This document shows positions 5,327-35,107 of a stretch of 64,000 nucleotides of DNA, piece after piece. The translations under genes and the position numbers were made by a program. Origin of the DNA: Mesorhizobium sp. RMAD-H1 (GTDB lineage: Bacteria > Pseudomonadota > Alphaproteobacteria > Rhizobiales > Rhizobiaceae); contig NZ_JACHWN010000007.1 of assembly GCF_014191375.1 (NCBI RefSeq), forward strand, positions 186,001 to 250,000, written 5' to 3'. Under the pieces are notes generated by a model. The model searched no databases, was not told where the DNA came from, and saw only the letters and a list, made by a program, of their open reading frames with translations. Numbering within the stretch: position 1 is the first letter of the stretch; each line of letters begins with the position of its first letter.

Positions 5327-6916
5327 TCAATTGGCCAGCTTCACTTCGTAAGCGAGCGTGTATTTGTCGCCGCGCGGCATATAGGTGACGGTCTTCTTCG
5401 CCCCCAGCACCACGTTTTCGTAATGCATCGGCAGAAGCCAGAGATTGTCGAAGGTCTGCACCGACAGCTCTTCAAGCAAAGGCTTGCGCTCCGCTTCGTC
5501 GAGCGTCGAGCTGGCCTTGGCAAGCACCTCGTCGATCTTCGGATCGGAAACGCCGCCGCCATTATAGCGGCCGGTGCCCTTTTCCTCGTCGCGGGTAGCG
5601 ACAAGGGCCACCGTGGGGTTGGTCGTCTCGCCGGAATTGACGCCCCAGGAGCCGAAGAAGACGCTGTAATCGCCCTTGGCATAGGCATCCGAATACATCG
5701 CCCAGGGCAGGACCTCGACCTTCGTCTTGATGCCGATGCGTGTGAACATCTGGCCCACGGCCTGCAGCACTTCCGCATCCTTGACGTAACGGCCGGAAGG
5801 GCCATGGATGGTCAGGCTGAAGCCATCGGGATAGCCCGCCTCCGCCAGAAGGGCTTTAGCGGCCTTCGGGTCGTAGCCCACCTTCTCGACCTTGTCCGAA
5901 TGGCCGGCATAACCCTCGGCGACGAACTGATCGGCGACCGTGCCGTTCTTCTGCATGACACGGTCGACGATTGCGGGGCGGTTGATCGACATCAGCATCG
6001 CGCGCCGGACGCGGGCGTCCTTGAGAGGATTTTTCCCGAGGTTCGAGCCGTCCGTGGCTTTGACGAAAGGCGAGTCATCACGGCTGACGTCCATGCCGAG
6101 ATAAACGAAGCGCGAGGACTGACCATTGATGACTTGGAGATTCCCGCTCGATTCCACGCGCGCCATTCCATCCGCGGGAAGGGTTTCGATGATATCGACC
6201 TCATTGGACAGGAGCGATGCGAGCCGGGCGCCATCATCAGGCAGGAAGCGCAGCGTGACATTCGACCAGTGCGAAGGTCCGGCGAAATAATGATCATTGC
6301 GCTTGAGCGTGAGATTGCTTCCAGGTGAATAGGAAACGAACGAAAAGGCTCCGGTTCCGATCGCGCACTTGCCATTGTCGAAATCCTGCACCGGCGCCTC
6401 CTTGCAGTCGGCGCTGATGATGCGGATCCGGCTGATGGAATTCAGGAGAAGCGGGTCCGGGATCTTTGTTTCGACGACGACCGTGTAGGGGTCCTTGGCG
6501 GTTACGCCGGCGATGTTGCGGGTATAGGCGGCAAAGCCCTGGCTCGGCTTGTCTCGCGCACGCAACAGCGATGCGATGACGTCATCGGCATTGAAATCGC
6601 TGCCGTCGTGGAACTTCACGCCTTCGCGCAGCTTGAACTCCCAATGGGTCGGGTCGACCGCTTTCCATTGCGTGGCGAGTTCCGGCGCATTGGCGGACCT
6701 GCCGGTCAGGTTGATGAGGCTGTCCCAGATATGCCGCGACGTCGCGTTGTTGGGGGCGGAGCTGTCCTCATGCGGATCGAGTGTCGTCGGCGTGGTGGAC
6801 ATGCCGATGCTGAGAGGGGTTTCCTGTGCGGCGGCAATTGCAGGAATAGCGATTGTTCCGAGCAGCGCCACTGCCCCACGCTTCAAGAATTTCGCGGTCA
6901 TTTTCTTGGTTCCCAT
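5327..6916 (-). CDS. Periplasmic substrate-binding protein of peptide-type ABC transporter (SBP family 5)
   Basis: 529-residue DppA/OppA-type binding protein that captures the ligand in the periplasm. A signal peptide is obvious (KFLKRGAVALLGTIAIPAIAAAQ, cleavage after AAA/AQ). The mature part begins ETPLSIGMSTTPTTLDPHED and continues WDSLINL, a typical SBP_bac_5 opening. FKLREGVKFHDGSDFNADDV is the family signature around residues 90-115. ATG 6916 is used here; in-frame ATG 6901 would give the same mature protein. It is first in the operon and divergent from the IclR regulator. Confidence 0.94.
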   Translation of the reverse strand: MGTKKMTAKFLKRGAVALLGTIAIPAIAAAQETPLSIGMSTTPTTLDPHEDSSAPNNATSRHIWDSLINLTGRSANAPELATQWKAVDPTHWEFKLREGVKFHDGSDFNADDVIASLLRARDKPSQGFAAYTRNIAGVTAKDPYTVVVETKIPDPLLLNSISRIRIISADCKEAPVQDFDNGKCAIGTGAFSFVSYSPGSNLTLKRNDHYFAGPSHWSNVTLRFLPDDGARLASLLSNEVDIIETLPADGMARVESSGNLQVINGQSSRFVYLGMDVSRDDSPFVKATDGSNLGKNPLKDARVRRAMLMSINRPAIVDRVMQKNGTVADQFVAEGYAGHSDKVEKVGYDPKAAKALLAEAGYPDGFSLTIHGPSGRYVKDAEVLQAVGQMFTRIGIKTKVEVLPWAMYSDAYAKGDYSVFFGSWGVNSGETTNPTVALVATRDEEKGTGRYNGGGVSDPKIDEVLAKASSTLDEAERKPLLEELSVQTFDNLWLLPMHYENVVLGAKKTVTYMPRGDKYTLAYEVKLAN

Positions 6917-27976: not shown

Positions 27977-28222
27977 CCATTCGTCCAATCAACGCGCTGG
28001 CATATAGGGGTTCTATGAGCATTTCCGCAATAACACCTACTAAGATCCCTCTCCGGTCGCGGGCGTTGTTTGGGCCTCGTAGCTCATCACAGTTACGGGA
28101 TTGAACGATACACGCTGAGATGACCTGCGCGTAGATATACGTAAAAACAGCGTTGTGACAACCGCGTGTCGAACGGGTTGGCGCGCCCGTCCCTCATCAC
28201 TGCTTCACGATTTTTCTGACCG

Positions 28223-28254
28223 AAAAAAATAGGGCCACCGGAAGACCGGGGCCC
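28223..28254 (-). terminator. Strong rho-independent terminator
   Basis: On the plus strand GGGCC-A-CCGG-AAGA-CCGG-GGCCC (28232-28254) is preceded by seven A residues (28223-28229). On the minus strand this is a 9-bp GC stem with one bulge and a four-base loop, followed by a U-tract. It ends the small RNA candidate and/or the MFS transporter transcript. Confidence 0.85.
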
Positions 28255-28351
28255 TTTAAGGTGTGAAGGTTAAAACCTCCAGAGGGGAACAGCTGATGCG
28301 ATGGAACTGGGGGGAAACCACCGCGTGCATCAGCTATGGGCTTAATGCCCA
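28223..28351 (-). ncRNA. Candidate structured small RNA or 3'-UTR-derived RNA
   Basis: Read on the minus strand, about 130 nt fold into three hairpins. The first is GGGC-N5-GCCC (28338-28350). The second is a perfect 9-bp stem AGCTGATGC/GCATCAGCT (28327-28335 with 28291-28299) with a 27-nt loop containing GUUUCCCCCCAGUUCC. A single-stranded part with GUUCCCCUCUGGAGG follows, then an intrinsic terminator with U7. C/U-rich loops able to pair with ribosome binding sites are common in alphaproteobacterial Hfq-dependent sRNAs. The 5' end is not defined: it may have its own promoter, or be processed from the MFS mRNA ending 130 bases upstream. Just upstream, CAGAATTTG is repeated at 28350-28358 and 28372-28380. 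The rest of the gap 27977-28480 shows no gene. Confidence 0.55.
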
Positions 28352-28480
28352 GAATTTGGGCGATGCGCAAACAGAATTTGTGCATTGCAGCTATGCGATA
28401 ATCGCAGCATGGCACCGATCGTCAGTGCAAATCGGTGCGTTGGTTGGACCCTCCCGCCCGCCTATTGTTCAATATGGCCT

Positions 28481-32830: not shown

Positions 32831-33165
32831 CGCGCCCTCCTCTCGTTTCCCGAGAGATTGGCCGCTCGCCACGCACGTTACAACTTCGCACCAGATTGAA
32901 GTCATTAGCGATGTGACGCGGGAATGGAGCCGGATTGCGTCAGAGCGCGTAAGATTGAATAGCGCTCCATGTCAGTCTCTGCTCTTGCAGGGACGTGATT
33001 GATTGATGCCAAAAGCAGATGCGCGGCAAAATGGATGGAAGATGAAAGCTCTATTGGAACGATTAGCAGCGCGTTTCATGGATCAAATCAGCAGCGGACG
33101 CGATTGAAGTTTGCAGCATTATGAAGTATTGTCTGCGTCTACATGCTTCATATTCGGGGAATATA
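32831..33165. promoter_or_regulatory. Divergent intergenic region, Gfo/Idh-like gene and XRE-type regulator
   Basis: 335 bases without a credible gene. It contains ATGGAGC (32924-32930) and its complement GCTCCAT (32965-32971) as a spaced inverted repeat, and the octamer AGATTGAA at 32893-32900 and 32953-32960. Regulatory sites for the divergent genes are expected here; no clear -35/-10 pair is visible. GGGGA at 33156-33160 is the ribosome binding site for ATG 33166. Confidence 0.4.
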
Positions 33166-33990
33166 ATGGATCATTTGGGGAGGGACGCCGCTGCGCTGGC
33201 AGCGAACCTGCGCACGTTGTGTGAGCGCCATGGCTCAGTCGCGGCTGTTTGCCGCAAGATCAACGTCAATCGCCAGCAATTCAACAAATACCTTTCGGGA
33301 GCCCACATCCCGTCGCCCGCGAATTTGCGGATTATCGCTAATTATTTCGGCCTAAGCATTCCGATCCTTTTCACCAATCCCGATGAGTTTCGTGCCCTCG
33401 TGGACGGCAACTTCTTTCATGCGATGGCAACGGTCCGGCAATTGCCAGAGTTCTCGCGCTTTGTCTCCAACATGATCGTCGAAAACAACGATGCTCACGA
33501 CGACATTGTCGGTGTTTATGATCGTTACCAGTTTTCCTCCATTTACAAAGGATTCGTGCTGCGATCAGCTTTCTGTATCTACCGCAATAAGGAGTTTCTC
33601 CAGCATTACTATGTCGAGCGGTTCCCGAGCTATGACGACCCACGAAAGACAGAGTATGTCTTCAAGTATTATGGTTTCTGCTTTCCGGTGGCCGACCGTC
33701 TTTTCACGGCCGATTTTGAGGGGATCCAATCGAATGAGTTGACCTTCGGTGTTTATGCCCAAGTCAAGCGGAACTCAAAAAAGTTCATGTTTGGTATTTC
33801 CAGCGGCATTGCGGCGACTGTGTTCCGTCAGCCCTACTCAACAAAGGTCGCGTTGCACTACCGCGGGCCTGGCCTCTTGCGGCGCGAGCACCTCAAGGAT
33901 CTAACCGTCATGGATCGTAATGATCCCTCGATACCTCGCGAAGCGCTACAGTATCTCGGTGATGGCTCAGACATGATCCAGATGAGCTAG
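33166..33990 (+). CDS. XRE-type HTH transcriptional regulator with unrecognised C-terminal domain
   Basis: 274 residues. The N-terminal lambda-repressor-like HTH spans about 5-65 (LAANLRTLCERHGSVAAVCRKINVNRQQFNKYLSGAHIP...IIANYFGLS). The remaining 200 residues are rich in Phe and Tyr (YKGFVLRSAFCIYRNKEF, KYYGFCFPVADRLF) and match no domain I know; a sensory or ligand-binding role is guessed. ATG 33166 has GGGGA five bases upstream; an ATG at 33121 would add fifteen residues without such a site. Its DNA looks more AT-rich than the flanks, hinting at acquisition. Divergent from the Gfo/Idh pair and close to the orphan gene at 34029-34718. Confidence 0.8.
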   Translation: MDHLGRDAAALAANLRTLCERHGSVAAVCRKINVNRQQFNKYLSGAHIPSPANLRIIANYFGLSIPILFTNPDEFRALVDGNFFHAMATVRQLPEFSRFVSNMIVENNDAHDDIVGVYDRYQFSSIYKGFVLRSAFCIYRNKEFLQHYYVERFPSYDDPRKTEYVFKYYGFCFPVADRLFTADFEGIQSNELTFGVYAQVKRNSKKFMFGISSGIAATVFRQPYSTKVALHYRGPGLLRREHLKDLTVMDRNDPSIPREALQYLGDGSDMIQMS

Positions 33991-34028
33991 AGCCCATCGC
34001 AGGCACTGCTTATCGATCGTTGCATTCC

Positions 34029-34718
34029 TTATGGATGCAGCTCGATCGCCAACCAGATACTGTCCGTAGTTGAATAGTAACGGTGCCACGGATAGGTCCA
34101 CTGGTTCTCACCGGTTACCCTGCAGAACGGATCGTGGGAATAACCGCTGGGCATGACGACATCTTCGTAAAGCGTCGTTTCGTTCCGCTCCTTGAATTTC
34201 TGCATCCGCCCAAGGCCGTGGATCTGCGTATGGGTTTCAAGGAAAGGATGCTCGTTATGGATGAAGCAATCCGTATCCCCCGGCGCCCACCATAGGTTCA
34301 GTTTGAGCCGGAACGTCTGTGGATGTAGCGTCTCCTGACGCTCATTGGTGAAAACCCGCGCGTCGGTGGTTACCGTTCCGATTTCATCTTGTGGCGAGAT
34401 ATAGAGCGGAGTATCGCGCGGGAAGCTGCGGATGCGATTGCCCAGCCAATCCCAGCCGCGGAACATGCAGCCCCCCAGATTTGTCGGCTTCATCACCTTG
34501 ATGACAGCGGCACGCTCAGAAGAGCGGATAACGCCCCCTTTGAGCCAAGTGGATTTCCACGCAGGGACAACGGCTGGATGTGTCTCACCGGTGATCATTG
34601 CGGTGGGGGAGATGTTGACGACCACCCCATCTTCGACGGAATAGTCGACGACATTCTCTATCAGGACTGCGGAAATGAACTCGTCCGCGAAAACCAAATC
34701 TCTTGTGACGTTCTGCAC
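34029..34718 (-). CDS. Conserved-looking protein of unknown function, possibly cupin-like
   Basis: About 229 residues, not recognised. No signal peptide or membrane segment. It is Trp/His-rich towards the C-terminus, with a possible metal-binding cluster HNEHPFLETHTQIHGLG followed by a segment that reads like a cupin strand pair (SGYSHDPFCR, TYPWHRYYSTTDSIWLAIELHP). I start it at GTG 34718 because GGAG lies seven bases upstream; ATG 34763 and TTG 34778 are longer alternatives without a good site. Divergent from the ThDP-enzyme cluster and convergent with the XRE-type regulator. It may be a cyclic-substrate isomerase or sensor for the cluster, but that is speculation. Confidence 0.65.
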   Translation of the reverse strand: MQNVTRDLVFADEFISAVLIENVVDYSVEDGVVVNISPTAMITGETHPAVVPAWKSTWLKGGVIRSSERAAVIKVMKPTNLGGCMFRGWDWLGNRIRSFPRDTPLYISPQDEIGTVTTDARVFTNERQETLHPQTFRLKLNLWWAPGDTDCFIHNEHPFLETHTQIHGLGRMQKFKERNETTLYEDVVMPSGYSHDPFCRVTGENQWTYPWHRYYSTTDSIWLAIELHP

Positions 34719-35107
34719 GCTGGTACTCCGTATCCTGCAAATTTTCCCATTACAGCCATACATGCTCAGCCATGCCAAAAAAGTGCGCGCCCAGATTATT
34801 TTATTCGCTCAATGACGCACAATAAGCTTCACAGTGCGAATATCTGGCCGATGTCACAACGCGCTTTCAGGCGAGGGAGTCCCCTTGCCTAAAGCCCCCA
34901 TCCGGGAACTTGCGCCGCTACGCTGCCCGATTTGGGATTGCGGACGACGCAGGCTGAAACCAAACCAGCTTCATATTGCGTCAGTGAATCGAAGGCTGCG
35001 AACTTGCGGCTTCGGCCTCTTTCGGTCGATCAATGAGGGCAACCGTCGGGAATATGGGAGTTTATCTCTCCCGGCATAGAACAATCTCGTTCAAGAGGGT
35101 CGATCAC
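34719..35107. promoter_or_regulatory. Divergent intergenic region ahead of the catabolic cluster
   Basis: About 390 bases without a credible gene. An inverted repeat GGGAG-N7-CTCCC (35056-35072) lies 36 bases before the ThDP-enzyme start and could be an operator. AGAGGGT near 35094-35100 is the ribosome binding site. An AT-rich block sits at 34795-34845. No definite promoter hexamers. Confidence 0.4.

Follow-up and report, generated by a model that had tools for sequence, protein, structure and literature searches.

The sRNA gene and its structure

The stretch of Mesorhizobium sp. RMAD-H1 DNA analysed here (64,000 nucleotides of contig C7, referred to below as the window) carries a full-length gene for an AbcR-family (ar15) sRNA on the minus strand (28226..28335), matching positions 1–112 of the 112-position Rfam model RF02345. 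The original prediction, made from the letters of the DNA, was of a trans-acting sRNA that pairs with the ribosome binding sites of mRNAs, possibly those of ABC importers, and the covariance-model search proposed with it (cmscan, whole window against Rfam 15) returned RF02345 at 114.2 bits, against a cut-off of 40, as the sole match in the window above its own family cut-off. The predicted role is indeed that described for the ar15/AbcR family, the members of which are trans-acting sRNAs pairing with the ribosome binding sites of ABC-importer mRNAs (PMC8844928; PMC5461406). Membership of the ncS54 family (RF02871) was rejected, as the score of 20.7 bits did not reach the cut-off of 43. Judged from its sequence, the window RNA is a genuine and well-explained addition to the known AbcR kind.

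The gene lies in a gap of 492 bases between flanking ORFs (27988 and 28481), in agreement with the gene-free interval of about 500 bases described previously; its neighbours are an ORF with a weak AMP-binding match and an MFS-transporter ORF, and the ORFs overlapping the sRNA gene itself are mechanical. The predicted transcript runs from about 28335 to 28223 on the minus strand (about 110 nt). The RNA had been thought to occupy the whole of 28223–28380, but 28336–28380 (45 bases) corresponds to the promoter. Elsewhere in the window, the G+C content of 33000–34999 is 0.51–0.54, as against about 0.62 in the preceding 13 kb, and this segment is possibly an insertion.

The region 28215–28385 has a fold of -64.2 kcal/mol, compared with -43.9 ± 3.6 kcal/mol for shuffled sequences (z = -5.6; 0 of 200 shuffles as good), and displays the ar15 layout of three stem-loops, with an unpaired GUUCCCCUC between the first and the second, and an intrinsic terminator. 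The 5' stem-loop (28291..28335, minus strand), supported by the fold, by pair counts in 33 sequences and by family-wide pairing, combines an outer stem of 9 bp, AGCUGAUGC/GCAUCAGCU, in which 28335–28327 pairs with 28299–28291 without mismatch, and an inner stem of 5 bp. The perfect 9-bp stem was therefore predicted correctly, but the C-rich loop that it was said to close is closed directly by the inner stem. The single-stranded GUUCCCCUC (28282..28290, minus strand) comprises the M2 (GUUCCC) and aSD2 (UUCCCCUC) motifs, both intact (motifs as in PMC5461406 and PMC8844928; unpaired state from the fold). Here, too, the prediction holds in part: GUUCCCCUC is unpaired, but UGGAGG is paired within the second hairpin (UGGAGGU ... 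ACCUUCA; 28264..28281, minus strand), as indicated by the Rfam alignment, the fold and the pair counts. The terminator (28223..28255, minus strand) consists of a GC-rich hairpin (28255–28231) followed by the expected strong U7 (28229–28223), and is supported by the fold, by the sequence and by two-sided changes in 4 of the 10 pairs of helix 4. A simple terminator scan did not report it, probably owing to the bulge in its stem.

Pairing was examined in a close set of 33 sequences (the window copy, 13 plasmid copies and 19 copies linked to lsrB), in which standard pairs fill 96.0% of cells. Cells with two-sided changes number 56; shuffles give 18.1 ± 2.9, and sliding the partners gives 1 to 6. 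Seven pairs show a two-sided change (5.2 ± 0.6 in shuffles, the value being reached by 7 of 500), and the 23 further pair types are not outstanding, given that 63 of 500 shuffles reached this number (21.2 ± 1.1). The two-sided changes fall in the inner stem (3 of 5 pairs) and the terminator (4 of 10), with none in the second hairpin (0 of 7) or the outer 9-bp stem (0 of 9). In the outer stem, four pairs are invariant and one is unpaired in 19 of the 33 sequences, and the lack of covariation reflects the fact that this stem hardly varies. Across the wider family, at least five uninterrupted terminal pairs join the 5' end to the bases immediately preceding M2 in 46 of 55 copies with quite different sequences, in a count permitting a shift of a few bases and made without a shuffled control (57 copies, less one coreless and one mis-extracted). 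Two such differing terminal stems, AGTCGACG/CGTCGACT and ACTTGCAGG/CCTGCAAGT, occur within the Mesorhizobium sp. RMAD-H1 genome itself. Covariation in this stem, a point on which the original prediction had been made to depend, is thus absent from the close relatives, but the stem is re-formed with other sequences in most of the family.

Promoter and relatives of the window copy

Upstream from the gene, the minus strand carries an LsrB/VtlR box, GCATAGCTGCAAT (28384..28396), which matches the published consensus GCAT-N3-TG-N3-T perfectly (PMC8844928). If the first base of the Rfam model is taken as the start of the transcript, GCATAGCTGCAAT lies at -61 to -49, which is where this consensus is found in the S. 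meliloti AbcR1 promoter; S. meliloti AbcR2 is described as mostly RpoH1-dependent (PMC8844928). The 64-kb window contains 13 matches to the consensus, counting both strands and the sRNA site, so that a chance match at one given position has a probability of about 1 in 10,000. Comparison of upstream regions by eye suggests a weak -35-like element, TTTGCG (28366..28371, minus strand; TTG at -35 to -33), and a weak -10-like element, CATTAA (28342..28347, minus strand); CATATC or a similar sequence is seen by eye at the -10-like position of many other copies.

The genome contains four ar15 copies, on contigs C7 (the window copy), C2, C1 and C6. The C2 copy (L002 1501–1615, G000 C2) has a perfect LsrB box at -63, and is the only one of the three non-window copies with such a box. 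It is adjoined by an LsrB-like gene of the LysR family, providing a candidate activator in the genome, the product of which is 96% identical to a protein of Paramesorhizobium deserti (the best of the 80 loci kept, in a search from which the records closest to the window were possibly excluded). This gene is followed by a partial ORF that we take, by eye, to encode thioredoxin reductase (trxB). For the C1 (L003 1501–1613) and C6 (L004 1501–1597) copies, no LsrB box was found in the 200 bases upstream, and both have a TTGAA at about -35 that, in our reading, resembles the published RpoH1 box. The C2, C1 and C6 copies have the same M2 and terminator layout as the window copy, but score 51.7–64.3 bits, have CTCCTCCCATTG or CTCCTCCCACTC loops and belong to types common to other members of the genus. 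Each of five other genomes of the genus contains three or four ar15 copies (16 in total), and no copy of the window type was found in these five. A midpoint-rooted tree of 54 copies splits into a clade of 24 (support 82), in which the window copy is grouped with copies from other genera, and a clade of 30 (support 80) containing all 16 genus copies; as far as its sequence goes, the window copy is of the Rhizobium/Agrobacterium type. The nearest genome copy, on contig 1160 of G034, is 87.5% identical. The set of genome copies comprised 57 of 62 listed matches (rows from G009, G015, G046, G055 and G059 omitted); G030, mis-extracted at a contig end, was left out of later counts, and the 54-row tree also omits two divergent G019 rows.

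The window copy is not located at lsrB, and the single repC match of the genome lies on the window contig, C7. S. meliloti Rm1021 has three AbcR homologues, two of which adjoin lsrB in tandem, according to a review (PMC7143759). By motif match only, 75 of the 80 lsrB loci kept (L078–L157) have an ar15 core no more than about 1 kb from lsrB, and 36 of the 80 have two cores. The LsrB box is perfect in 62 of the 75 first copies, versus only 4 of the 36 second copies, and thus separates two promoter classes.

Plasmid members of the ar15 family have been listed previously, and the existence of plasmid copies is not, therefore, claimed as new here; the family is known. The segment from the LsrB box to the terminator matches 386 of 72,556 PLSDB records (272 typed as conjugative, 94 as non-mobilizable and 20 as mobilizable), in 292 of which a single place accounts for at least 80% of the 178-base query. 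These copies come from Agrobacterium, Rhizobium, Mesorhizobium, Phyllobacterium and other genera, and the best 40 listed are 82–89% identical over most of the box-to-terminator segment. With the query extended by 24 bases upstream, such that the box begins at position 25, 38 of the best 40 listed matches start at position 24 or 25. For 60 matches spread evenly down the ranking, with the box at position 5, the match starts at position 5 or earlier in 45, and later in the other 15, in some cases deep inside the RNA. One of 50,697 records in a phage collection also matches, from box to terminator, at 74% identity (MT838570.1, 1592–1765); this 5.1-kb record is labelled Bacteriophage sp. and is possibly a mislabelled plasmid fragment.

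We selected 26 plasmid copies, 25 of which were scored; L162, which has a shortened core and an LsrB box visible by eye, was left out of the scoring and of the 112-row tree. The LsrB box is perfect in 22 of the 25, and the Rfam cut-off was passed by all 14 copies tested (the 14 fetched first, of the 26). In the 112-row tree, which includes the lsrB-linked copies, the window copy belongs to a clade of 16 (support 90, as printed after rerooting) together with three genome-contig copies and 12 of the 13 treed plasmid copies. As similarity to the window was the basis on which the plasmid rows were found, the tree shows that the window copy is unlike the lsrB-linked copies, rather than that this type is exclusive to plasmids. 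A repC gene is present on the contig of one of the three genome-contig copies (G019 C20) and was not found on those of the other two. On that repC-bearing contig (L062), a 2-kb stretch contains three ar15-like matches, two of which, at about 31 bits, are strongly diverged; G019 has six ar15 matches in total.

Of the 23 annotated plasmid copies, 14 (L158–L160, L165–L167, L169, L171, L271, L275–L278 and L282) have a gene for plasmid transfer or maintenance no more than 4 kb away, a count from loci of our own choosing without a control for background frequency. The genes concerned encode DUF1419, DUF3085 or DUF3991-toprim proteins, a very large helicase/methylase, a ParB-type protein, VirB or TraG, and are presumably part of the leading region of transfer. 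The sRNA sits immediately between the large helicase gene and the ParB-type gene in L276 and L277; one or two small ORFs intervene between these elements in L171, L275 and L282. The other nine annotated copies are placed elsewhere, for example among transporters. The window copy, unlike the 14, is not in a module of this kind, and a search for DUF1419 in its own genome, run without a positive control, found no match. An RF02915 (DUF3800-VI) RNA motif is present 115 bases downstream from a plasmid ar15 copy in L159, L161 and L167 (4287–4338). The published, northern-validated pAT_55271R from the pAt plasmid of A. tumefaciens C58 was considered as evidence for the transcription of plasmid AbcR genes and rejected, as it belongs to a different Rfam family, Atu_At1. 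In the open-access literature, which leaves out most subscription journals, no description was found of AbcR on conjugative plasmids with LsrB boxes; a 2011 survey of Rhizobiales covers replicon copies of other sRNA families in the part available (PMC3927594).

Pairing motifs and candidate targets

The working motifs of AbcR have been defined in Brucella as M1 (CUCCCA) and M2 (GUUCCC), with most targets requiring M2 or both (PMC5461406). The window copy has the unpaired GUUCCC, but has CCCCCA in place of CUCCCA at the M1 (aSD1) position of the first loop (28308..28313, minus strand). A CUCCCA in this loop is not a defining feature of ar15, as S. meliloti AbcR2 also departs from it (PMC5461406). 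CTCCCA is nevertheless present in 24 of the 25 scored plasmid copies and in 71 of the 75 first and 26 of the 36 second lsrB-linked copies, and CCCCCA is unique to the window copy among the 137 rows examined. In searches of the genus, family and order, CTCCC was absent from 4 of 56 copies, namely the window copy and three strongly diverged ones, and the exact window-loop pattern had no match in genome contigs, the records closest to the window possibly being excluded. A C in place of U in the loop would cost one pair with sites of the GGGAGG type, and the window AbcR therefore probably acts mainly via M2, the function of M1 presumably having been lost.

The same substitution could be a sign of decay, the window copy being an AbcR delivered by a plasmid and now losing its function. 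The singularity of CCCCCA among the 137 rows and the weakness of the CATTAA element point in this direction, but the score of 114.2 bits, the perfect 9-bp stem and the intact M2, terminator and LsrB box argue against it, as do the CATAAA or CATTAA sequences seen by eye at -10 in several plasmid relatives, and we consider decay improbable. We attach a similarly low probability to a base-call error in what would be a two-motif plasmid AbcR of the usual kind: draft assemblies can go wrong at a run of six C residues, and 24 of the 25 scored plasmid copies have CTCCCA, but the window copy differs by a substitution, not by a change in run length. A main role in occupying Hfq, or in competition with the other three AbcR copies over common targets, would be consistent with the identity of M2 in all four ar15 copies of the genome, but this, too, appears unlikely. 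Finally, the RNA lies on the same strand as the MFS-transporter ORF (29953–28481) and begins 145 bases downstream from it, but it is very improbable that it is the 3' end of that mRNA or some other cis element, because many copies in other surroundings share the upstream LsrB-box region and the MFS homologues in G003 (88%) and G004 (81%) are on contigs without an ar15 match. The favoured reading remains that of an AbcR sRNA acting in trans.

Three approaches to its targets were tried. Duplex energies, calculated with guessed starts, did not differ between 25 presumed substrate-binding-protein loci and 44 window ORFs: p values ranged from 0.165 to 0.742 for four sRNA segments (window aSD1, window aSD2, aSD1 of one native copy and aSD1 of one plasmid copy), and were 0.157 and 0.254 for two reversed controls, the value of 0.165 being that of aSD2 and 0.157 that of its reversed control. 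Four of the 25 loci (L201, L206, L207 and L224) were scored on the ORF of the strand opposite to the match which, like the guessed starts, makes this comparison a flawed one.

In a seed count for which the match determined the strand, GGGAAC, the exact complement of M2, is found no more than 20 bases upstream from a possible start in 6 of 27 Peripla_BP_6 and SBP_bac_5 genes, versus 6 of 333 other ORFs (p = 7e-5), although most start regions of this first set had been inspected before the count was made. The 27 genes are drawn from 31 listed, four Peripla_BP_6 rows below the family cut-off being omitted. In the one independent family, SBP_bac_3, GGGAAC was found in none of 17 genes. The counts for the first set, SBP_bac_3 and the control were 4/27, 1/17 and 9/333 for GGGGAA, 4/27, 1/17 and 13/333 for GGGAGG, and 0/27, 0/17 and 5/333 for GAGGGG; CTGGGG, the complement of the window loop, gave nothing notable (1/27, 0/17 and 3/333). 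GGGAAC ranks first among the 60 orderings of its letters, with CAGGGA second (5 of 44 genes versus 5 of 333), and the signal is thus not sharply specific. One of the six genes is the SBP_bac_5 gene at 5327–6901 of the window (minus strand), in which GGGAAC lies just before the presumed start; from its sequence context, it is a possible target on the same replicon. The patterns GAGGGGAA and GGGGGGAA occur 2–9 bases before an ATG at 18 and 11 places in the genome, respectively, as against two places for each of the reversed patterns; two of the 18 are ar15 genes, two correspond to one place, and most of the others precede very short frames.

A probable plasmid-type AbcR and its known counterparts

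Taken together, these results make it probable that the window encodes a plasmid-type AbcR sRNA that is activated by LsrB, assisted by Hfq and acts mainly through M2 as a repressor of importer mRNAs. LsrB (VtlR), the resident regulator of the LysR family, the gene for which is on another contig, would activate the sRNA gene via the box at -61, and the transcript of about 110 nt would stop at its own terminator. S. meliloti AbcR1 and AbcR2 depend on Hfq for their stability (PMC3712013) and, with Hfq, the unpaired GUUCCC(CUC) of the window RNA may pair with the Shine-Dalgarno regions of mRNAs, mainly those for importers, blocking their translation. The repression of ABC importers is taken over from the family, and the target set in Mesorhizobium sp. 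RMAD-H1 is presumptive. The window copy appears to have arrived on, or to reside on, a repABC replicon, adding to the three other AbcR copies of the genome.

By itself, the window copy is one more AbcR, the extra interest of which lies in its plasmid clade and its altered M1. Its context suggests that conjugative plasmids carry a global regulator of nutrient import from host to host together with an intact promoter, and that such a plasmid AbcR can come under the control of a regulator that the host, with its own three AbcR copies, already possesses. Tentatively, AbcR could be a recurrent part of the conjugative repABC plasmids of Rhizobiales, a portable cassette of LsrB box and sRNA, often placed among transfer or maintenance genes, that uses the LsrB of the recipient to retune nutrient import on arrival, the window copy being an M2-only variant; we consider this broader scheme possible rather than probable. 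It raises the questions of how rhizobial and agrobacterial plasmids alter the diet of their hosts, and of why one genome keeps four AbcR copies with differing promoters and first motifs.

The closest known counterparts of the window RNA are the AbcR1 sRNAs of Sinorhizobium meliloti and Agrobacterium (RF02345), which it resembles in its three stem-loops, its M2/aSD2 segment, its terminator and the position of its box at -61 to -49. It differs from them in its location away from lsrB, on a repC-bearing contig, in the CCCCCA at M1 and in its weaker -10 element.
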